Source: Sistotremastrum niveocremeum HHB9708
Lineage: Eukaryota; Basidiomycota; Agaricomycetes; Sistotremastrales; Sistotremastraceae
Length of the DNA: 20,474 nt
NCBI GenBank assembly: GCA_001630475.1
Contig: KV419495.1
Location: 1 to 20,474, forward strand
Direction of reading: 5' to 3'
Of the stretch, positions 1 to 19,247 are shown in pieces (the stretch's first letter is position 1; the number at the start of each line of letters is the position of its first letter). Under the pieces are notes generated by a model. That model searched no databases and had not been told where the DNA came from. It saw only the letters and a program-made list of their open reading frames with translations. The position numbers were made by a program, and so were the translations under genes.

Positions 1-1938
1 GACCCTTCTCCTCCTCCGACACATCTACCGGTCCCTCTTTCACCGCTTTAGCATCCTTATCCGAAATCGCCCGATAGAATATCAGAGTCGCGATAGCAGT
101 AACCCCAACCCCCGCAAACAAAAACCAAAAACTATCCTTCCTCCCCTCAAAGCTCCCCCTCCCCTCCCCACCATTCTTTCCAGCCGCATCAATATTACTC
201 TCAATACTACTAGCAGCAGACACAGCAACAGCCGCACCAACCTGCAGAGCCGAATTAAATATCGCACCGACTGTACCTGCGAGACGGGATGGGGTAGTTT
301 GGAACATTGCTATTCCGGTGTTTGCGTAGAGTATGGAAGCACCGAGGGTGCCGAGGATGAAGGCGGGGAAGAGGGTTGACCAGTAATGATTTTTAGAGCC
401 GCCTATTGTGAATAGGGGTGTGGCGATTATGAGGAGGGCGAATGCGGAGAGGAGGACGGGGCGGAAGCCGAAGCGGGTTGCTAGGTACATTGCTAGTGGG
501 AATGCGGGGAATGCGATTATTCCTATTGGGAGGCTATATCATAAAATTATTAGGTGTGGGAGAAAAGGAGGGGTGAGGGGGCTTACAAGTGGATTGCGGC
601 GATTATGGGTTTCCATTCGTATACTTCTTGGAAGTATTCGGTCCAGATTAGGAATGTGGTTGCCCACCATGCATAAGGGATGAGCGCCACACCGAAGAGC
701 ACTGCGAAGTTGGGGTAGAACCATATACTCGGTGGTCTACACCAATCACCATCAGCACTGTCATTTAATTAGAGAAGGGGAGGGGGGACTTACAGGCAAG
801 CGTTATCCTCCGGAATAGTAGTCTCATACCAAAAGAACGCAGCACCCAAAAAGACCGAAATGATAATAGGCGCAAGGACATGCGCGGACCCCCAACTAAT
901 CGTCGATCCACTCGTTATGCCGAAAATGAAAAGGATGAGAGCAGCAGTGATAATCGCCACCCCTACAAAGTCTAAGCCTTTCGGCTTGGTGTCTTGGTGG
1001 CCGGAGGGTGTACCGATTCGCTGGGGGATTAGGAAGATTGAGAGAAGGGCGATGGGGAGGACTATCATTGTGCCGAGCCAGAATACCCAGCGCCAGCCTG
1101 CGAATTGGGTAAGCAGCGCTCCGATAATAACTCCACACACTATCCAACCCAATCAACATCCCACATGAACGTATAGAAAGGACGGAGGACTAACCGTTGC
1201 CTACGGCACCTGATGCGCCGAAAATAGAGATAGCGAGAGCTTGTTCTTTTTCGTTAGGGTAGAGGTGGACGATTAGGTTTAATGCTGAGGGGATTGTCAA
1301 GGCTCCGCCTACTCCGCTTATGCCGCGGATTACTAGGAGGCCGATTTTGGTGTGTGTGAAGCCTGCGCCGAGGGAGAGGAGACCTAGACTTGCGCATCCT
1401 GCGATGAAGGAATATTCTGATACAGGTTGTCAGAAATCGTTTGCTTTCTTGACGGATGAAGAAGACGTACTGGGATTGTAGATGTCGCTTAATCGTCCGC
1501 TCTACAATCGACGTCAGAAAGAGATCATCGCGATGAGAGAAGCGGACATACCAATAAAAGGAAGGAAGCAAAAGTCAAAGGATAAGCGCTAATAATCCAC
1601 ACACTCTCACTCGCATTCATCTTCAACTGTTCCGAAATAGTAGGCACAGCCGGAAACAGTGCAGAGACATTGAATACATCGAGGAATTGAGCGAGGCAGA
1701 AGAAGAGGAGGAGTAATATCCGGAGACTTGATGATGGTCTCTTTGCTTCTGCTTCTGCTTCGAGTAGGGATGGTGAGGTGGAGGGAGAGGAGGATTTGGG
1801 GAGGGTGGAGATGACGGGTTGGGGAGAGGAAGATTTTTTGGTGAGAGAGGGTGTGCGGGTGAGTGTGGGTTCTTCCTCGACGAATGTGGCTGTTTGGGAA
1901 TCGGGGAATGTATCCGTTATCGACGTTCGTGTTGTCAT
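1..1938 (-). CDS. MFS drug:H+ antiporter-type transporter (DHA2-like, ATR1-type), C-terminus cut by window edge
   Basis: A membrane exporter of the major facilitator superfamily, probably with 14 helices and proton-driven. Exons (minus): 1938-1552, 1501-1471 (31 nt), 1416-1195, 1139-794, 736-587, 533-1 and beyond; all joins keep frame. Residues 1-70 are a Ser/Pro-rich cytosolic tail. The first helix starts near residue 73 (RILLLLFFCLAQFLDVFNVS). The loop after helix 2 carries the MFS motif-A-like SGRLSDIYNPK, built by exons 1 to 3. RGISGVGGALTIPSALN and GASGAVGN...GALLTQFAGWRWVFW follow, typical of DHA2/ATR1-like fungal exporters. About 556 codons are in the window, so only the last residues are missing. 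The start is supported by GAAATGACA. The substrate cannot be read from sequence; azole, aminotriazole or boron-type efflux is known for relatives. Sure of the family, unsure of the role. Confidence 0.9.
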
Positions 1939-2110
1939 TTCTTCTTCTACTTCTCGACGATTCGCTGAGGTTATTGGGGGGTGGATCGGCTACTAATAGA
2001 CTCGAGGTCTTCGAGCGTCGGACGGGTGGAGGGTAGGGAGGAGGGAGAGCTCGGGAGGGCTTGTAGGAGGGGAAAGTCGATTTGGTGGATAAGTCGGCGA
2101 GGGATAGCAA

Positions 2111-4161: not shown

Positions 4162-5821
4162 TTATCTCCCACCACCGACCGTCAACCCCCGCGCATTCAT
4201 CCCCATCCCATTCGCACTCGCATTCGCACCCCTCACACCCATACCAATATTCGTCGACATAGAAATCTTCATCTTCCTCCGACTCCACCTAACAAATAAT
4301 AAAACTCCAAGATATCCAATCTGCACAACCACCCTACGGAGGACTTTAAGGCCCCCGGATTTATGGGATATGAAGTGGGCGTAGAGGTGGAGCCATCGGA
4401 TGGGATCTTCCAAGAGAGATGATGAGGCAGAGGAGGAGGAGGAAAATGTGGAGGAGTGGGAGGAGGGAGGGGAAGAGTAGAATTTGAAGAGGACGGGAGA
4501 GCGGCATACGGGGCATGGAGGCGTCGTAGTTCGGAGGGATGCTATAGGAGTCCCGACATCGATAGCGGGAGTCGAAGTCGAAGTCGACGACGAAGAAGAA
4601 GAAGAAGAAGAAGAAGAAGGGAGAGTAGAAGAGGGATTGAGGATCATACTGGGAAACGTATCTTCATCCACCCCAACCGCTCCGAATAAATTCCTCACAG
4701 CAGCGTGTGCGAGTGCTGAGCCGGATGCGAGGTTTAGATATTGGAAGCCTGTGGCGTCGAGGATTGATCGGGCGCGTTCGAGGAGTTTGTCGTCTCTTAC
4801 TTCTCCTCCTTCTACTTCATTCACTGAGGCCGAAGCCGAGGTCGAGAGGGAGGTCGAAAAGGGAGTGGAAGACGGAGAAGAGGTAGGGTTGGATGGAGGC
4901 GAAGATGAAGGGTTGGAAGGGGGTGGGGAGGAAGATACAAGTACGATATCAAGCTGTGAAGCTCCCCTCCTCCGCTGTTGAAGATACGCCTCATGCCACG
5001 CCAAAAAGCACGATCGATGGGAAAGATGCATCCTCGGTGCTGTCACGCAGAATGATTCCAGTTTTTCGGATCCGAGACGATCTGTGCTTGCGCCTGAGCA
5101 GATGCTGCATTCTCTTTCTTCTGCTTCTCCTCCCTCTTCTGTAGAAGTTACGTCTTTGGTAGATGAGGAGGAGGAGGTGGTAGATTCGGAGGTGGGGATG
5201 GGATCTCCACAGACGATTATTCGTTCACCTTCCTTCTCCTCCCTCGCCCGCGAGATCAAGAATCCCACAGAAACCCTCTGCACCTCATGCGATACCGCAA
5301 GTACGATCATAGCCCCCGCGACAACTCCCCAATTGACACTTGCGACTCGCGGAAGTCGTCTCGGAAGAGGCAATGAGCCTGCGAGTGCTGTGAAGATTAT
5401 GCTGAGGGGGTATGAGGTGTCGAAGTAGTTTAGTAATCCAATCGACGTCTGCGGAATTCAATAAGTATTGTAAATGAGGGAGAAGGGAGGGGAGGGAGGG
5501 GAGGGGACGTACGAGAAAGTCGAGAGATGATAGGATCGCACGGGTTCTTGAATCAAGCTCATCGCCAGGACTCATAATCCACTTCTTAACCTTCTCTCCA
5601 ACGCTCATCTCTTCCTCCTCCTGCCTATCATCCTCTCTTCTATCTCCTCCTGCAAACGAACGACCCCGAGTCCGACGACCGCTGGCGCTACTTTGTGAAT
5701 GGGTGGATGAGGATGTGGATGGGATGTTGGAAAGAGCGAGATGTCGAAGACCGGCTGTTCCTTCGTGCCATGATGCAAGCGCATATGAGATCAAAGATAA
5801 TTTCAACGAAGAGGATAACAT
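4162..5821 (-). CDS. Membrane-anchored RING-like (RING-CH-type) protein, putative E3 ubiquitin ligase
   Basis: Two exons: 5821-5513 and 5448-4162, giving 531 residues. The only intron has donor GTACGT and acceptor GCAG. An N-terminal hydrophobic segment (residues about 6-17) is followed by a Ser/Arg/Glu-rich region, two hydrophobic stretches near residues 116-128 and 143-155, and a RING-like zinc site: C217-x2-C220, C237, H244, H247, C250, and then CPVC at about 415-418. The second half-site lies some 165 residues away, past Pro/Ser-rich sequence and a poly-Ser run coded by a trinucleotide repeat. A hydrophobic segment near the C-terminus (VVVQIGYLGVLLFVRW) is likely another membrane helix. 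The cysteine pair usual in RING-CH is C-x-T here (CVT), so the fold is atypical. Ubiquitin transfer at a membrane is inferred from the family. The start is the first ATG in frame; the gene begins 133 bp after the WDR24 stop. Confidence 0.75.
4592..4618. repeat. (GAA)9 microsatellite
   Basis: Nine uninterrupted GAA units on the plus strand, inside the RING-like gene, where the minus strand encodes part of a poly-serine run between the two halves of the zinc site. Length variation would change only the serine count. Confidence 0.9.
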
Positions 5822-5954: not shown

Positions 5955-8900
5955 TCACTGACGAAAAGCCTCATCCATCATCCCCTCATTAGTAGCAAAA
6001 CATAAATGCCCACACCCAATCGGACAAGGCTGTCCATAAACCCTCATCTTATCTTTCCCTCCTCCTCCTCCCCCATTTCCTCCCGCTCCCCCAATCCCTC
6101 CCTTCCCTGCTCCGGAGCCGGAACCGGCGATTCCGGAGCGTTTCCAATATCCTGCGCCTCCAGGCCACGTCCACCCCCCTCCGCCGTTCGAAGTCGAGCC
6201 AGATCCGGAGCCAGGAACGAGGCTCGAAAGACCATTCCCAGTCCCGTGGCCTGTAGCTGTGTTCGTAGTACTACTAGCACTACTACTCGTCGTACCACCC
6301 GTCCCAGCCGTACTCCCTCCATTACTCGATAAAGGAAGATCAGATACATACGCTGTATCGGTGGACGAGATGAAGGACTCCCATTCGGATATGTATGTTT
6401 CGCCTGGGACGAGGGGGAAGTGGACGTTGGATGTGGATGTGGATATGGTACGTGTCGAACTGTCTTTTGATACTGCGCGTTTCTTGTCTGTTATTCCGGT
6501 GGTGGTGTCGGAGGTGGAGGTTGTCGGGGAGGAGGAGTCGGGATGGTCATTGAATGAGTTTCGGCGCGAGCGTCGTCCGCGAGGGAGTAATGCCGCAGCC
6601 GCACGCGCTTCTCGCTCACCCGCACCTCCTCCTCCTCCTCCCCTCGCACTCAAACTCGCACCCGGAATCCCAAAACTCAAAGCACCAGCATACGTCCCCC
6701 CACCCCCACCTACTCCTCCCGCTCCTCCTCCAAGGTTCGGATGTAAACCCCCGCCGATCCACCCTGTTCCAGGACGATACCCAGCCCTCATCCCCCCCGG
6801 ACTCTCCTCAAATTCAACACCAACCTCCACAAATCCCCGACTCGCATAATACCCCCTATAACACTCCGTATGTCCTCCATGTGAACATACAGTACAATGA
6901 TATCGTAATCCTTTGACGGGGAGATGACAGATTGAACAGCGGGATGTTAGAGTTTTGCAGGATTGACAGATTGAGTAGTGCGAGGTGGGGAAGGGAGGGA
7001 TGTGAGGGGAGGGAGAGGAGGAGAGGAGGGGGTGGTGGCAGGTGTTGCATGTTGTTGGGATTACGGTTTCGAGCTATAGTCGTTATTCAGCATTCGTCTT
7101 ATTATTGAGATGGGAGGAGGACGTACGCCGGTTCGAGAAGCTATAGGGGTGACTTTCGTATGTTTCCTCACATAAGCCGCACAAGCGTTAAGTCGTAATC
7201 TCGCCAACGCATCTACACCATCGCCCACCCATCAATATCTTCCCACAACCTCCAAAAGCGAGTAAACGCACCAATATACGCATCGAGAAAGCTCTGAACC
7301 CTCCATTCCTCAACCTCCAATTCCTTCCCCGCAACATGCACCATAAGCGCACACATCTGCATATCGCCCTATAAAAGCATCGATCATCAGTATCCTTGCA
7401 ATTGGGGAGCGGGAGCGCGGCGGAGAAGGTCCGACGAATAACGAGATGACGGAATGACAGAATGACGGAATGATGGTATGAAAGAAAGAACGAGGATAGG
7501 AAGAAACGTACCTGATCGACGAAGAAATCGAATTGCTGCTTCAACCCGTACCATCCAATACGCCTATAACTCTCCTCATCTTCACTTATTTCTAATTTCT
7601 TACGGGCGTGTGTACGGCCTTGCCAGTCATCTTCTTTTTCTCCTTCTTCCTCTCCGTCATATCCTTCTCCTCCTCCTCCATCGTATCCTCCTCCTTCGCC
7701 GTTGTAGCTCTCCGCGTACCGATCTCCGCGGTTATATTCGCCGTTCATACGATGAGCAGAAGCGGAAGCGGAGATGGAGAGATTAGGACGCTCACGATCA
7801 CGATCGTGCGAAGGTATTGGAGAATGAGCTCTCGATGCCGCAGCGGAGAACATAAGACCCAATCCACCTTCAGACCCCGCAGGTGAAGGAACGACAGAAG
7901 CAGGCGAAGGAGGAGGTATAGGTACGAATTGAGGACTAAGCGCCGTCGTCGATAACGCTGTACTCGTCGTCACTAATCGTAGAGGCGACGCCGTACCCGG
8001 AATATGTTCATTCGTCGAACTCGACGCAGAGGCGGATGTGGTGGGAAGACGTGGAAGGAGAGAATTAGGGAGGGGAGGTGAAGATGCGATCACCGTACGT
8101 AGACTTGCGGATGAGTTCTGTTTCTCGAGATGATGATGAGGTTGAGGAGCTTTGAGAGATGCGATCAAAGGCATCGAATGCGTCTGCTCTGCCACGTTTC
8201 CACTTTGTTCGCGATCGCGAGTCGATCGTGAATCGTCGGCTTCGTTCGACTTCCGAGGACGCGTACGTGCTCGGGTCGAAAGACCATGCGAACGACGAGA
8301 ATGGTGAGAATGATGAGAAGCGTGTGATGGTCGACGATCCCGCGTTCGAGGTGAAGCAGACCCAGATCTTGATCTCGACTCCGAATTTGAGCCCGAGTCT
8401 GAACCTGACTCTGATTCAGAGGCTGAGTTAGGTGAAGGTGAAGATCGATCTGAGTGTTCTGAAGTCGGAGACGTGGATTCTGCGTCATCTTCGTCTGATG
8501 AGAGATCTGCTGCGCCGGGAGGAAGTGTTCCTCGTTCTTGATCTCCTTCTTCGTCTCCGCCTGCGCCGTCTTCGACTTCGCCGAATTTGACTGCATCGGA
8601 ATCTCCATCAACATCTTCTTCATCCGCTTTGACTTCTTGCTTCAAAGGACTCAAATCCACCGATTTACGTTCTCTCGATCCGTGTCCATGTCCATGCGCG
8701 TGTCCTCCTGCATTCCCGCTGGTTCCGGCGAGGCTGGAGGAGAGGAATCCACTCGACGAGACGCTAACTCTCAGTCCGCTCTTCTTCCTTCCAGCTTCAT
8801 CACTCCTCGCCGGACTCGGTTCTTTACTCCCTCCCTCTCCTCTTCCAACGGAGCCGGGGAAGACTTCAATAAGAGGCGACCCCTCATCAACCTCATCCTC

Positions 8901-11900
8901 GTGAAAGACCCCGCCGAACTCCACATCACTCCCACTCCCACTCCTTCCACCAAGTAGATCATGCTCATCAGCCTCGTGGTCCCCCTCCTCATACCCCACT
9001 CCCCCCTCTCCCTCTCCCTCATCATCAGGCTCCGAATCACTATCATCAAGCGCCTCCAACTCCTGGCTAACAAAACTCTTCGGACTATCCGGTCCTAAAC
9101 TTCCCCCCGCATGAGAAATTGACATAGATCGAATCGAAGGTCTGGAGCTGGAGGTTGTCATTATGGATGGACGGCGGCCTGGTAGACCTGGTCGAGGTGA
9201 TATCCCGGACGCAGATCCTGAGAGAGAGATCGGTGTACCGGTGTTAGTGTGGTTTGGGGTGTTGGATGTATGTGTCGTTGAGCCTGAGCCGCTACGTTTT
9301 GAACGGGCTCGGGCACTTGAACGGGAATGAGATTGGTGGGGAGTTGATGGTGGAGGATTCACGGATGTTATGGATGTAGCTGTAGACGAAGATGAAGGGA
9401 TAGTGGGTAATCCACCAGGTGCGATTCGCGGCGAAGGTGAAGCAGAATGCGTAGGCGTAGATCTCCTAGTCTGAGCCATCGAGGAACTCGATATCGACGA
9501 TCGCGGCGTATGCGAATGGGAATGCACAGAGGAGTGGACAGAGCGAACACCGCCTATAAGCGTTCCACTACTCGTCGTACCATTCCCAGATCTCGAAGGC
9601 GACGATCTCGAAAGTGAAGGATTCGTCCGACGAAGAATCGGCGATGGACTCCTCAAACTGCTCTTCTTCGCCTTCACATTCGCATTGGCCCCCAGATTAG
9701 GATCCGTCAAATCAGCATGTCGATCCGCAGGTAGAGGCGGAATCGAAGTGATAAAAGGAAGAGGCGTTGATTCTATCTCCCCATCTGCCGAATCTCTCCC
9801 GAGTCCAGGCGACGAGTGTGAAAGAGGATCGTATTGATCGGGGGAAGGTTTCGAGACTTTCGTCCAGCCATCTTCATCTTCCCCATCTTGTGTACCTTCG
9901 ATCATCTCTCCATCGCCTTCTCCGTTCTGATCAGGATGGAAATCTGTGAAGAGACATTGAAGCATGAACCACGTATGCGCCGCGCGATTGTATCCCGCAT
10001 CTAACGCGACCTACACCACACCACCTCGCATTAGTAAAGCAGGTGCATTAATTAGAGCGAAGAAGTACCTGAGCGTTGGTGCTGCACATCTCCCGCCTAT
10101 CGCCTTCCATAATATACCCCTTCGCAAGACGCGTGAACCCCTCCCGATCATAGATTGGAACAGGATACGTCCCGAACGTCTGCGTGTGTGGTTGATACGA
10201 GGCATCACCCAGGGTCTTGGGTTTGATCTTCTTCTCGATCATCTGCGATCTCCGGTCTTCTCGACTAGCGAATCAATGTCATCAGTGAATGTTCGACGAG
10301 GGAGGAAGAGACGTACATGTCGTCGTATGGGATCTCCCACTTGTCCACAGCGTCAATCACGAATCCAAGCGTCCCCATCCCATCCCACGTCATCGAGTTC
10401 CGTCCAACAAGATCGATAGGTTTTGAGCAGATCGATAAGTCGAGTTGTGAGAATGTCCCGGAGAGGGTATGAGACCATGCGGTATGGGAGTCGAGGAACG
10501 TGAAGTCTTGGGTGACGGATATACGACATTAGCGATGGATGATGGACGATAAAGGGGAGGTAATACCTGTTGATCCGCCTTCGCTCCCGCCGACACCCCA
10601 CTTCGCGATCCATCCTCTCCTCACATCCCATATCTCAAGACACTCTCTTTCGACTTCTCCACCACCTACACCGGATCCCATCAGCTCTGTTCGATAGTAG
10701 ATAAGGAGGCACCGAACGTACTTTCAGAATGCGAGATAACCCCAAGTTCACACTCATACCCACTCCCAGGCCTCCACTCCACATGTCTAACAGGGTACGA
10801 AGGATGTAACGTATACGCCGGCTGTTGCGTCAATCCATGCGTTAAGTCCCAAATCTGCCGCCATTAACGTTAACATAGGCCTCGCAGAGGTAAGAGCAGG
10901 AAGGGAGGGGTACCTTGACGGTTTTGTCGAGAGATCCGGTAGCGACGTAATTCGCGCTTTCTCCTCGTCCTCCATCACTCCAAGCGCATGTCATAATCGA
11001 ATTGCGATGAGCCACCAATACTCTATCCAGGACTTTTGTCTGTCTCGGATCGCATCTACGCATCGTTACAATCAGTACAAGAGGATATGTGAAGGAGGGA
11101 GGGAGGCGTACCGTAGTATCGAGCCGTTATCGAGTCCGCATATGACTTGCCACGAAGCAGTCGGTGTTATCGTCACACTGCGTACGGCGGCGGGACATAT
11201 AAATTTCACAATCGATGCTCGCGGATCTCTTGCGTCCTGCCCCAATGAACAACATCAACACGACTTTATGTTTCGGAGGCGGAGAGGGAAGGATATACCC
11301 ATACGCGTGCGGTGCCGTCTTGAGAAGCTGTGACGAGGTAATTCGGCGCGATACGCGAATATGCCATGTCGTTGACACTCCTCTGATGTTCCTTGATTCG
11401 TTTCTCTAAACCCATCCCACCTATCAGCACTTATCTCATCTTGGAGGGAGGAGGAGAACGAACCAAGTTTACATGATCCACGAGACACGTCCCATATGTG
11501 GAATTCGCCGTTCCGGCCACATGTAAATATCTTATCGTTCTGGGCTGTAGGTACTCGTCAGTACTCGTTCGTCTTCGTGAGGGTTCGAAGAAGGAGGAAA
11601 GGAAGGCAAGATGATATAAGAAGATAACAAAGAATGACAGAAGGAAGAAATGTGATCATCAATCGACCCGATTTCTCAAACCACACAATCGGATTCCCCA
11701 TATGTGTGATACGGCTTCTCCAATCGTGTGTGGGTACGGAGAAGTCGAATGAGATGAAACACGCATCGAATGACGAAAGCGCAGGAGTGAAAGGAAGGCG
11801 AAGAAGCAATGGTTATAAGACAACGAACGCCAACATCGCAGTGTACGAGAGGGAGAACGATAATCGCAGACTCTACGGTAACGACGCGCAAAGAAAATAG

Positions 11901-13393: not shown

Positions 13394-14978
13394 CTAAAGC
13401 CTGGCCAAAGCACCCCCATGTTCCCTCCACCACCTCTTCCCAACCTCCTCCGCATCATACCCAAACTGTTCCCCATTCTTCCTCTTATCCGCCCACTGAT
13501 TCATATTTCCCTCATTCCCACCCTTCCCCCTCCCTCCCCCTTCCCCTCCACTCCCGCCGCTCTTGGAAAGCTCGAGTTCCTCGGCTTCATCATCCTCCAT
13601 AGCCTGCCTCATCTGTCTATCCCTCTCCCTCTGTTCCTCCCCATCTTCCAAATGGAATATCCACTGATTCAGCCTACTACTCTTCTGCGTCTCACTCGTC
13701 CTCCCCACCCTCAACTCGAAATAAGCTTGTAAGAGAGGTCGGAGTTGCGCCTTTGATGAGATTCGGGAGAGAAGGACTCCGAGGACTGCAGCGTCCTCAA
13801 TAGCCATAGCAGCCCCCTGCGCACGATAAGGAAGCATAGGATGACATGCGTCACCTATCAATACGATGGGTGAGGTGGGGTGGATCCAGTTTGGGAGAGG
13901 GGCGCGGTCGAAGAGTTTCCAGACTAGAGTGGATGGGATGAATGAGAGCATCTTTTTGATGCGCGGTTCGAAATCTGCGAATTCGGCTCGCATCTCTTCT
14001 ACGCTTCCTTTCGCTGTCCATGATTCCTCTCGAGCTTTCTCCGCTTTACGTTGTTCGGCTTTATTCTTGAACGAATCGCCTGTCTCCTTCGAGGAGTCGG
14101 AGGAGGAGTTGGGATTGGAATTGTTGGAGGGGAGGGTGGAAGGAGCGAAGACGGCGTCGCGGGCAGGATGAAGCATAACCAAATTATACTCCCTCCTCCC
14201 CCTAATACAATACCCCATAATATGCCTCCTAGGCCCCATCCAAGCCGTCATCTCCGGTCGTTCAATAAGACCTCTCAACTCCTCATCCTCCATCATCTTC
14301 TCAGCACTAATCGTAGCTCTATAAGCCGCATCACCCGTCGGACTCGCTTGATCTTTCCTCCCTACGACAATATTGCGAGTGAGGGATTTTATACCGTCTG
14401 CGCCGATGATCAAGTCGGCTGAGAGGACTTCGCCTGAGGAGAGGGTGATGGAGGGGGTGGTGGGGTGGGGTGTGTGGGATGTTACGAGGGAGGAGAGACG
14501 GAGTGTTACGTGGGGGTGGGAGAGGGCGAGATGGGAGAGCATTGTGTGGTAGTCTGCGCGGTGGATGTGATAGTACGGTACACCAAATTCTTTGCGCATG
14601 TTCTCGCCCCATTTCGTCCTTCCTACAATCTCGCCGTTCTCATCTACACCACCAACCACATCAGCCCCCATTCGCATTAACAGATCAAACGGAAGACTTA
14701 CAACGACGAAAAACAACAGCCTCAGGTTCAACAGCAACCCTCTCCAACTCACTCCCTAATCCCCACCTCAAAAGCAACCTAACAACATTAGGCGTAACCT
14801 GTATCCCCGCTCCAACTTCTCCAATCTTCTCCGCCGCTTCAAGAATCGTCACTTTATGTCCGGATGAAGCGAGAGTGTGGGCGGCGGCGAGACCGCCTAG
14901 ACCGCAGCCTATTATTATTATGTGCAGGGGGAGGGGAGCGGGTGGGTAGGCTGAGGCTGATTGGGGGGATGAGGGCAT
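13394..14978 (-). CDS. FAD-dependent monooxygenase, salicylate-hydroxylase-like (group A flavoprotein)
   Basis: Two exons, 14978-14702 and 14643-13394; the intron (donor GTAAGT, branch CTGAT, acceptor GTGTAG) joins RR to YENGEIVG. Protein of 508 residues. Three hallmark sites are present: the Rossmann GxGxxG GCGLGG at 24-29 within HIIIIGCGLGGLAAAHTLAS; the DG motif GADG at 173-176; and the GD motif GDACHPMLPYRAQGAAMAIED at 356-375. YYHIHRADYH near 116-125 is typical of fungal salicylate hydroxylase-like enzymes. Family chemistry: NAD(P)H- and O2-dependent hydroxylation of aromatic acids. The actual substrate is not readable. Residues about 258-300 are a Ser/Lys-rich insertion, and the C-terminus adds Glu/Gly-rich sequence. 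The start is the first ATG (GTCGACATGCCC); the frame stays open about 67 codons further upstream but holds no ATG. Confidence 0.9.
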
Positions 14979-15520
14979 GTCGACGTCGGTGTGATCGTAG
15001 TAGTCGTATTCGGGATCGTGGATGTGCTGGCGGTCGACGAAGACGTGGCTGGAGTCGATGTACGCCGAGTGAAGCAGTGAAGTAGGAATAGGGGCGTAAA
15101 TCAATGAAGACGATGAAGGTTTAAGGGAGATCCGGCCCAGCAGCTTCGAGCCTAAGAGCCTAGGAGACGAGGAGATAAATCACAGCGTGGATAAACCAAC
15201 TTGCGGAACGTACATGTAGAGCTACATAAGCAGCCAAGCTAGATCATCAGACTAGCCAGTAACGAATCATCCGACCCGCCCGAGAACCTGAACCGTAGAG
15301 CCGTAGGCCGTAGTTCGTCTAAGCATATGCTCAAGAACAGTTTTCCCATCTGCCGCACGCTCATTTCACAGCTATCGTCTACGTTCCCAAAATTCCCAGG
15401 GCCGGCGATTATGAGGACGGGAGTATCGCGTGTAGATGATTTGTAGGTTCCATGAATGAACGGAGGCGAATAATTGAATCGAAATGGACGACCAGGACTG
15501 GATTCTAGTCTCTGGAGCAT

Positions 15521-15551
15521 ACGGTAAGAGCGCTAGTCTAGCGTATACCGT
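15521..15551. repeat. Nested inverted repeat
   Basis: The inner arms CGCTAG and CTAGCG (15531-15536, 15538-15543) flank one base. The outer arms ACGGTA and TACCGT (15521-15526, 15546-15551) pair as well, with 4 and 2 unpaired bases between the stems. It lies about 1 kb upstream of the phosphate transporter start and 540 bp upstream of the monooxygenase start. Confidence 0.7.
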
Positions 15552-16236
15552 GCGCCCCGTAGCGCTTATTCTTTAGTCGAAGTCATTTATTCGTCTCCTA
15601 TCCGGATCTTTATTTTCTCCTCTTACGTTTTATTCTTACCTATTCTTACATAATCTTCTTTCTTTGACTACCTGGTCCTGAAGGCTAGGAGAGATGATGA
15701 ACGTTCGATCTATAAATATCTGAACGTTGTAAGTGCCTTGTACCTCGACCTGTCAGATTTTGAAATTCGGTACCGTAAAGCAAGCCGTAAGATGTCGAGA
15801 TTGCTTTGACCTTCCCCGCATCTAATCGTATCTAATCTCCTCGGCATATCGGCACATCTCCTCCCCTGTCTCTTCCTCGGGCCCTCCTTTACGAACCTTT
15901 ACGGGTATCGATCTTCATCATCAATCTCGACTCTTTCTCTCCTCGGATTCTCCTTATTTTAATCCTTCGGCCCCGTCCATCGGCATCGCTTGAATCTGTT
16001 CGGTTGTAGCGACTTTACATCCGAGCGCTGTTCCTGGGAATCAATTTTTAAAGAAGAGAAGACCGGCAACCAGCGTCGGCATGACTTCATCCATCCGTCA
16101 CGGCATCATCTCATCTTCTCGCTTCCCTCAAACTCTCCTCACTCGATCCCATCGGTACCTCGATATTTATACCGTCACCAGTACTAGTGGCTCCTACGTT
16201 CCTACGTTGCGTTCCTGTGGAGTCTCGTAAAACGAC

Positions 16237-16243
16237 AAACGTG
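16237..16243 (-). promoter_or_regulatory. CACGTT-type site upstream of the phosphate transporter (candidate Pho4-like site)
   Basis: The minus strand reads CACGTTT, about 300 bp upstream of the transporter ATG. In fungi, phosphate-starvation bHLH factors of the Pho4 type bind CACGTG or CACGTT. A single weak-class copy is only suggestive, and a 6-base match can occur by chance in a region this long. Confidence 0.25.
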
Positions 16244-16540
16244 CTTCAACAACCTCTCACAATTCGTCCTTCAACCCAGAACAGCTCCCAGAACGCCCTT
16301 CGACGTGCGACCGTTCGTGATGTGAGCGAACGCGGTAGTGTAGAATGAGAGTATGACGGAAGTTATGGCATGCGTAGAGATGTAGTGGTATATCATACGT
16401 TGTATCCACCCGCTTCCCGACCGAATTTTCACTTCCCGCCTCCCTCCGTCCCTCTCTCTAAAATTTTCACAACGACCCCGAAAATTCTCCTTCCACAGCA
16501 CCTCGACTGAAATCGGATCTAACACGTCCACATCATCGAA

Positions 16541-19093
16541 ATGGCCACCTACCGCCCTCCCCAACATCATCCAGGAGGCGCAGACCCCGCCGATCCTGAA
16601 GATGCTGCTCTCCACAACGTCGATCGTACGGGTCTCAAAGGCGGACTAGAAGAATATGAGAGGAACGATGGAAGACCTCCTTTTGTGCTTACTTGGACTG
16701 AAGTGAAGTTACTTGGGATTGCGGGTGTTGGATTTTTCTTGGATGGTGTGTTCTTCTTCCTTCTTTGGGGATGCATGGAAATTTATGTTGGGGTGCAGCT
16801 TATGATTTGTTCATCATTAACGTATGTTTTTTCGTTCGATTTGTTGGGATTGTTGCTGATGGGGACTATAGCAAGGTATTTGATTGAACATGTCGGTGAA
16901 GAAAGCTCGACTGATTCGATCAAAGTCACTGTCCAACTTCAATACAGGTCCTCCCTCCCTCGCTCCTTCCCATCGTCCACTCATTGCTGATTGACTCAAT
17001 GATAGATTATACGGCGGTCATGCCCTTCCTACGAACCTCCAAGGCTTCGTCAACGCCTCAGCTAACATCGGCTCCGTCATCGGTCAATTCTCATTCGGTT
17101 CGCCGCCTCCTCGCTACCCGTCCGTAGATCCACGTCTAACCCTCTATCGTCCTCAGGCTACCTCGCCGACTCCCTCGGCCGCAAAGCAATCTGTACGTCC
17201 TCCTTACCTCGACTCGTCGATTATATGTACTGATGAAAGTTCGTCAGACGGCAAAGAACTCATGATCATCATCCTCGCAACAATCCTCACAATTTCCGCC
17301 CCCACAGACCTCTGGGGCCCACCCCACAACCACCCAAACCGCGTCCTAATCTGGATCGCATGCTGTCGAATCCTCCTAGGCATAGGCGTAGGCGCAGACT
17401 ACCCAATGTCCTCATCCGTCACATCAGACCGAGCAGTCCTTCGAAAACGCGGCTCTTTACTCGCATACGTCTTCGCTAATCAGGGATGGGGGTCTTTGGT
17501 GGGATCGTTGGTTACTATGATTACGCTTTTGGCGTATAAGGGTGCTATTGAGAAGAAGTCGAGTAAGGTTGATGGGAGTTGGAGAGTTATTGTTGGGTTG
17601 AGTCTTGTGCCGGCGTTTGGGACGCTTTATCAGAGATTGACGTTGCCGGAGAGTACGAGGTTTAAGGAGAGTCAGAAGGTGCGTGGGGCGGATGATGAGG
17701 AGGATGAAGAGGAGTTTGAGAAGAAAGTTGGGTTGGATGGGAAGAGGATCTCGGACGATGGAGAGGGGACAGGGGTGGATGTTCGTCCGGCGGGAGAGGG
17801 GTTGACACCTGCTACTACTATGATGGGGAAAGAAGGGGATGAGGATGCTGCGACTGTTGGAGGACCGAATGCACCTCCCGCGGAAGGATTGGGAGTCAAA
17901 GCTGCTGCTGCTAAGAAAAAAGCTCATTTCAGAGGTACGTCTATCATTTTTATTCTCCGAGTCCGGAGTTATTGAGGGCGTTGTAGAATTCTTGGTTTAT
18001 TTCTCGGAGTGGAGACATGCTAAAACGCTCATCGGGACGTGCTTCTGCTGGTTCTTCCTCGACATCGCGTACGTCCCTCCCTCCCTCCCACCTCCTCCAT
18101 CTTCATCGTCATTGAATGAGTGATCGGCAGATTCTACGGTATCAACCTGAATCAATCCGTCGTCCTCCAACAAATCGGCTTCGCAGGCAAAGGCGAAGCA
18201 GAATGGACATCTCTATTCCATATCGCTACTGGGAATTTGATCATCACCGCTCTTGGATTCGTCCCCGGTACGGTCCCTTTCCTCCTCCCACCTTTTGCAG
18301 TCGCTAAGATGGAATGCAGGATATTACGTCACTGTCCTCACTATCGAATACCTGGGTCGTAAATGGATCCAAGTCCAAGGATTCCTAATGGCAGCTCTAT
18401 TTCGTACGTCCCTCCCCCTGGCTCATCGCCATAAGGACCGTACTAATACGAATGACGGACGATAGTGGGAATCTTAGCTGGGAAATTCACGACGCTCTCA
18501 ATCCCCGCATTCGTAGTCTGCTTCGCTCTCCTCCAGTTCTTCTTCAACTTTGGTGCAAATGCGTAAGTCACCCTGCCCCCTTTCACCCAACAACTACTAA
18601 CGATCTATGATGATAGGACGACATTCATCTACCCCGCCGAAGTATTCCCCACCCGCGTCCGTGCAACAGCTCACGGGATGTCAGCCGCATGTGGAAAAGC
18701 AGGCGCTATCATCTCTTCTCTCGCATTCAATTCGTTGTCGAAGAAGATCGGAACTCCCAACGTCCTCTGGAGTACGTCTTTCCTTCTTAGTCTCTCCCCT
18801 CTTTCTGTCCCTCTCCTCCATCCTCCATCCTCCGTTGCATCCTCCGTCTGCAATTTTTACGGGAAATATATTCTGAGAATTCGAACGACATGCTGATGCT
18901 GATGTAATATGTAGTTTTCTTCGGCTGTTGTCTCGCAGGCGCATGTTTCACAATGCTCCTCCCCGAAGTCAAAGGCCGCGATCCGGATTTGGTAGATTTG
19001 GAGGAGATTAGGGAGAGGAGGGTTAAGAGGAGGGGATTGTTGGGGAGGAAGAAGAATGTCAACGGCGGGGTTGATGGTACGAATGGAATATGA
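16541..19093 (+). CDS. PHO84: High-affinity inorganic phosphate:H+ symporter (PHO84 family, MFS)
   Basis: Thirteen exons: 16541-16745, 16799-16821, 16872-16875, 16926-16947, 17006-17097, 17157-17192, 17248-17934, 17987-18068, 18131-18267, 18320-18403, 18466-18562, 18617-18771, 18915-19093; 600 residues. The start has a good context (CGAAATGGCC). Family hallmarks in order: [20 protein letters not shown] then DLFIINQV (helix 1, with the paired Asp residues known in fungal phosphate symporters), [19 protein letters not shown] (MFS motif A), [41 protein letters not shown], then [37 protein letters not shown], and PEVKGRD near the C-terminus. The central cytosolic loop has an acidic Glu/Asp-rich insertion before AKKKAHFR. 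Expected in the plasma membrane, importing phosphate with protons. It is divergent to the monooxygenase and convergent with the next gene. Confidence 0.95.
16872..16875 (+). other. 4-nt microexon (CAAG) of the phosphate transporter
   Basis: Flanked by two 50-nt introns, 16822-16871 (donor GTATGT, CTGAT branch, ending TATAG) and 16876-16925 (donor GTATTT, CTGAT branch, ending AAAG). It supplies Gln77 and the first base of Val78, giving [13 protein letters not shown], in register with the family. Skipping it shifts the frame and runs to a stop in exon 7; retaining the second intron gives an immediate stop. Confidence 0.7.
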
Positions 19094-19247
19094 ACGGAAT
19101 TAATTGAGATGCGACGATGGACTGAATTGGAATTATCTGTTTGATGTACAGTACGGAAGTTTGCATGTGAATTCGAATTCAAGAATAATATATCTATACG
19201 ATATCGCCGTACATGTAACAAGAGTGAAGTTGACATGCTCTATGGTA
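19094..19247. other. Convergent 3' intergenic region
   Basis: 154 bp separate the stop codons of the phosphate transporter (+) and the downstream minus-strand gene. The region is A/T-richer than its flanks. The two 3' untranslated regions probably overlap. No clear polyadenylation signal of canonical AATAAA form is seen; AAGAATAATATA near 19182 is the closest. Confidence 0.4.

Follow-up and report, generated by a model that had tools for sequence, protein, structure and literature searches.

The locus and the predicted transporter gene

The window, i.e. the whole 20,474-nucleotide stretch of DNA analysed, corresponds to positions 1-20474 of contig C101 (KV419495.1) in a genome assembly of 34.7 Mb and 111 contigs. 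It contains a 13-exon gene for a phosphate:H+ symporter-like protein, together with five other genes or open reading frames, all on the opposite strand (Table 1). The FAD-dependent monooxygenase-like gene is represented by two overlapping open frames, with an intron seemingly near position 14700. The transporter gene model was built by reading positions 15800-19200 and joining GT-AG introns; its frame is intact across 600 residues with 12 such introns, 11 of which are 50-62 nt long, the remaining one being 143 nt.

The product looks like a predicted phosphate:H+ symporter. TIGR00887 (2A0109), by far its top match among 16 NCBIfam families, aligns with it over profile positions 11-498 of 502 at 489.9 bits, a score below the curated cut-off of that model (610.3 bits), and PF00083 gives 135.3 bits. 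The similarity to a structurally solved member, PDB 7sp5 ('Phosphate transporter'), which we take to derive from Serendipita (Piriformospora) indica, a basidiomycete, is full-length, with 563.7 bits in two stretches covering residues 37-271 and 332-583 of the query.

Table 1. Features of the window, with the exons and introns at the 5' end of the transporter gene
Feature	Positions	Strand	Description
Second MFS-type transporter, in exon pieces	790-1989	-	MFS_1 weak, below cut-off in both pieces
Open frame with Cys motifs CSICSG and CPVCRS	4162-5457	-	no Pfam match
RING-like zinc-finger open frame	5955-7073	-	zf-RING_16, 26.9 bits, just under cut-off of 27.4
940-aa open frame, Ser-rich, low complexity	7188-10010	-	no Pfam match
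FAD-dependent monooxygenase-like gene	13394-15179	-	divergent, upstream of transporter gene; FAD_binding_3, NAD_binding_8
Phosphate:H+ symporter-like gene	16541-19093	+	13 coding exons, 600 aa, stop TGA included
Exon 1	16541-16745	+	205 nt, phase 1 at end; end confirmed by spliced alignment
Intron 1	16746-16798	+	53 nt, GTGTGT..GTGCAG, without CTRAY match
Exon 2	16799-16821	+	23 nt, finishes an A codon, then YDLFIIN
Intron 2	16822-16871	+	50 nt, GTATGT..CTATAG, CTGAT with A at 16859
Exon 3, predicted microexon CAAG	16872-16875	+	4 nt, Gln and first base of Val; 7sp5 alignment, shuffles
Intron 3	16876-16925	+	50 nt, GTATTT..TCAAAG, CTGAT with A at 16914
Exon 4	16926-16947	+	22 nt, (V)TVQLQY(R)
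Intron 4	16948-17005	+	58 nt, GTCCTC..TGATAG
Exon 5	17006-17097	+	92 nt; gene model, spliced alignment
Single intron of the rival reading	16826-16925	+	100 nt, donor GTTTTT, gives N-V-F

A predicted 4-nt exon and its alignment with a solved relative

An earlier note on this DNA had proposed a run of 23-, 4- and 22-nt exons in the transporter gene, the last two separated from their predecessors by 50-nt introns, and its coordinates (16799-16947) were reproduced. The CTGAT branch-point motif that it had claimed for each of the two introns was likewise found, once in each, with its A 12 nt (intron 2) or 11 nt (intron 3) before the last intron base. As modelled, CAAG is an internal exon of a few nucleotides that lies between GT-AG introns and restores the frame, i.e. 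a microexon. The favoured reading, to which we give a probability of roughly 0.85, is that CAAG is a genuine coding exon of 4 nt, probably constitutive, within an ordinary gene for a phosphate:H+ symporter; the case for it is built on one solved relative, the anatomy of the flanking introns and shuffled sequences.

The first stretch of 7sp5 was aligned with the raw DNA of positions 16501-17800 using a purpose-written spliced protein-to-DNA aligner. In a flat version, which has no splice-site model and scores every GT and AG site as equal, the alignment returned exactly 16799-16821, 16872-16875 and 16926-16947, the peptide of 7sp5 at the site being identical to that of the CAAG-spliced product, including Q-V. 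The flat version selected the CAAG exon at six of 13 intron penalties (0 to 10). At the other seven (12 and above, up to 30) it chose instead a single 100-nt intron, in which exon 2 runs on by four bases to the donor GTTTTT, so that the product reads FIIN-V-F-T and CAAG would be an intronic accident; the switch occurs where it does because the BLOSUM62 scores of Q-V and V-F differ by 12. With donor, acceptor and branch-point terms set by hand, the CAAG exon was kept at all seven penalties used (8 to 24); it gains about 14 from these terms, and the switch is then calculated to lie a little above 26.

The single 100-nt intron is nonetheless a coherent alternative, albeit one that we consider unlikely. 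The donor on which it depends had been pointed out in the earlier note, and does exist: the resulting chain is in frame, free of stops and leaves the length of the protein unchanged, while its 3' end is served by the same CTGAT 11 nt from the end. TIGR00887 scores the two products almost equally (489.9 bits with N-Q-V, 489.6 with N-V-F), so that the broad family model does not decide between them. Against it, the residue pair identical to that in 7sp5 is lost, the length is roughly double that of 11 of the 12 modelled introns, which have 50-62 nt (although the twelfth has 143 nt), and no account is given of why the interior can be parsed into two introns, each with a CTGAT 11-12 nt from its end. 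The 7sp5 evidence represents one solved protein, since the five alignments seen are near-identical versions of it; the next relative is a plant protein, 9kmq.

Alternative chains, donors and chance

All chains linking exon 2 to exon 4 that are in frame, stop-free and made of GT-AG introns no shorter than 38 nt were enumerated, giving four with one intron and three with two. Only the CAAG chain, from the donor at 16822, yields FIINQVT. Among the two-intron chains is one whose middle exon has zero length (introns 16826-16875 and 16876-16925) and whose product reads N-V-F, hence the product of the single 100-nt intron could also arise by recursive splicing, with a step at 16875/16876.

The strength of the competing donors was gauged by a tally over 387,956 bases, covering 21 sources (the window and loci L026-L045, paralogue loci included) on both strands, of how often a donor hexamer is followed by an intron-like end. 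This was the case at four of 77 places for GTTTTT, compared with seven of 79 for GTATGT and seven of 93 for GTATTT, the median hexamer standing at 0.029. The tally picks out GTAAGT (12/45) and GTACGT (17/88), but separates the competing donors weakly; GTTTTT, described in the earlier note as a poor donor, is thus only slightly poorer than the two that the CAAG model uses. GTGTGT, the donor of modelled intron 1, scored 0/56. A splice-site model trained on long open frames was abandoned, as the 34 unverified introns obtained had scattered donors and were too noisy; GTTTTT occurred once among them.

How readily such an arrangement arises by chance was estimated from 20,000 shuffles of the 104-nt stretch, in which dinucleotides were preserved and the first six and last four bases stayed in place; exons of 1, 4, 7 or 10 nt were allowed between introns of at least 38 nt, and both ends of the stretch were accepted as correct. 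Of these shuffles, 4128 contained a tiny exon that restores the frame. N-any-V was obtained in 395 and N-Q-V in one of the 20,000; a tiny exon of any kind with CTRAY in both introns was found in 21, and N-Q-V with CTRAY in both introns in none (0/20,000). Similarly, AG, any four bases and GT occurred in succession in 80 of 967 genomic spans that run from GT to AG and measure exactly 104 nt (16 loci, both strands); none of these 80 carried CTRAY in both introns, and the more specific AG|CARG|GT was present in none of the 967. Thus, the pattern by itself is cheap, whereas its combination with the residues of 7sp5 and two branch points is not.

It may also be asked whether the microexon merely patches the frame after a base had been lost from the assembly at the edge of one long intron. 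Such a loss would likewise create a frame problem; however, no correction is needed to obtain an in-frame GT-AG parse with a residue identical to that of 7sp5, and the rest of the gene is intact, so that an assembly error is the least probable of the explanations considered. A duplication origin of the paired introns finds no sign in their sequences, with 17 of 50 bases identical between introns 2 and 3, and a mean of 17.4 after shuffling.

Homologues

Four places on other contigs of the same genome are related to the transporter gene, and those on contigs C17 and C23 yielded models spanning the CAAG site. In both, the sequence is FFTDAYDIFA|INIAS; an intron separates A from I, and the exon before it is 31 nt long. 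Neither has an intron between N and the next residue, and neither has the microexon. Short exons in this segment are common to all three genes, but of these only the gene in the window shows the 4-nt exon. The C23 model is not independent of that for C17, the C17 product having served as its query together with the hand-set splice terms; in a first C23 alignment, with flat splice scores, the introns near the site were placed differently. The C23 model also needs an apparent intron of 39 nt (locus L027, reverse complement, 2063-2101), which would be very short if real. The C8 alignment stops short of the site, whereas that for C16 crosses it without an intron there, at a score (139) that makes it too distant to judge.

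The earlier claim that the CAAG peptide has the right register for the family therefore goes too far. The two residues concerned are identical in 7sp5, but the corresponding positions are I-A in both resolved paralogues, and TIGR00887 hardly separates Q-V from V-F. Outside this genome, a search of genome contigs for homologues returned one distant Streptomyces protein (L046, 23% identity), and a search of viral contigs gave no match.

Proposed splicing and the question of a switch

Pairing of splice sites across the intron is the expected mode for introns near 50 nt. The earlier note held that 4 nt is too short for exon definition, so that splicing must rely on the two flanking introns; the premise is true, although it carries less force where introns of about 50 nt make intron definition the expected mode, and the deduction is a reasonable one. 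From the sequence we infer that intron definition would operate on each of the 50-nt introns and that they would be removed in succession, since U1 and the 3' splice-site factors cannot occupy 4 nt together, i.e. two complexes cannot assemble on the exon at once. If intron 2 were removed first, the junction AACCAAG|GTATTT would present a usable 5' splice site. The same CAAG precedes this donor before intron 2 has gone, so that either order of removal may be possible.

Skipping of CAAG would, as the earlier note stated, lose the frame and lead to a stop in exon 7 (residue 132), and across skipping and retention of a flanking intron the predicted stops fall at residues 80-150. It may be that such events constitute a regulated switch, by which the transporter is turned off under some condition. 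In other fungi, MFS and sugar-transporter domains are reported to be enriched among alternatively spliced Cryptococcus genes (PMC3990503), and a glucose-dependent 20-nt microexon is described for Trichoderma Xlr2 (PMC11121469). However, a premature stop also results when any one of the 12 introns is retained, or when any of nine of the 11 internal exons is skipped, only exon 6 (36 nt) and exon 10 (84 nt) being skippable in frame, and no feature specific to CAAG that would point to a switch was found. The 'off switch' of the earlier note is thus not supported, and we regard regulated inclusion as very improbable.

Also counting against a switch, the + strand of 15501-16545 contains a single match to CACGTG, CACGTK or MACGTG; this is AACGTG, at position 16238, rather than the CACGTG of Pho4 sites.

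A different use of the same elements can be envisaged, in which the donors 4 nt apart, coupled with inclusion or skipping of the 4-nt exon, would give two in-frame transporters, FIIN-QV and FIIN-VF. By family knowledge this site should lie in the first transmembrane segment, where the two products would differ in two residues; were this so, the microexon would tune rather than kill the transporter. Two such isoforms appear about as improbable as the switch, and constitutive inclusion of CAAG is the reading carried forward here.

Comparison with known tiny exons

Tiny exons are already known, though rare, and CAAG is probably a real, ordinary case of this known class. Among the matches listed in literature on microexons, fungi, basidiomycetes and phosphate transporters, which include a record on lupin and a paper on Drosophila microexons, there was no earlier report of it.

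The closest fungal parallel concerns Fusarium CYP621A genes, in which a single-nucleotide exon was inferred from the reading frame and by comparison with a homologue that lacks introns, is needed to assemble the gene and has SRA reads behind it (PMC12940212). There, as here, a motif is interrupted by two introns with a tiny exon between them; the Fusarium exon, however, is 1 nt long, common to the orthologues compared and read-backed, whereas the 4-nt CAAG is a model from genome sequence. Cryptococcus neoformans, which resembles the window gene in being rich in introns that are short (median 56 nt), has exons 'as small as 1 bp'; unlike CAAG, these come from a genome-wide RNA-seq annotation, and the section describing them makes no mention of the transporter gene (PMC3990503). 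In the case of the single-nucleotide exon of Arabidopsis APC11, intron definition has been suggested by the authors, the introns on either side being removed in succession (PMC4674806). That exon is constitutive, as proposed for CAAG, but it is a plant exon of 1 nt for which expression assays were done (PMC4674806). The 20-nt microexon of Trichoderma virens Xlr2 is, like CAAG, fungal and alters the product when lost, but differs in its dependence on glucose (PMC11121469). Phanerochaete P450 genes likewise contain fungal microexons (2-10 aa) and frequent introns of 45-55 bp, the shortest exon given there being 6 bp, compared with 4 nt for CAAG (PMC1184071).

The interest of CAAG is principally one of gene annotation. 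It is to be expected that automatic gene finders would overlook such an exon, or replace it by use of the wrong donor (N-V-F), so misstating two residues of the product. The reading proposed involves no new mechanism and leaves knowledge of splicing unchanged, though the region may provide a compact natural substrate in which the spliceosome faces two 50-nt introns 4 nt apart.

Elsewhere in the transporter gene, three introns (17193-17247, 18069-18130 and 18404-18465) start with GTACGTCC, followed in two of them by a run of C and T, e.g. GTACGTCCCTCCCTCCCTCCC at 18069; the pyrimidine tract in these introns lies right after the donor rather than ahead of the acceptor.
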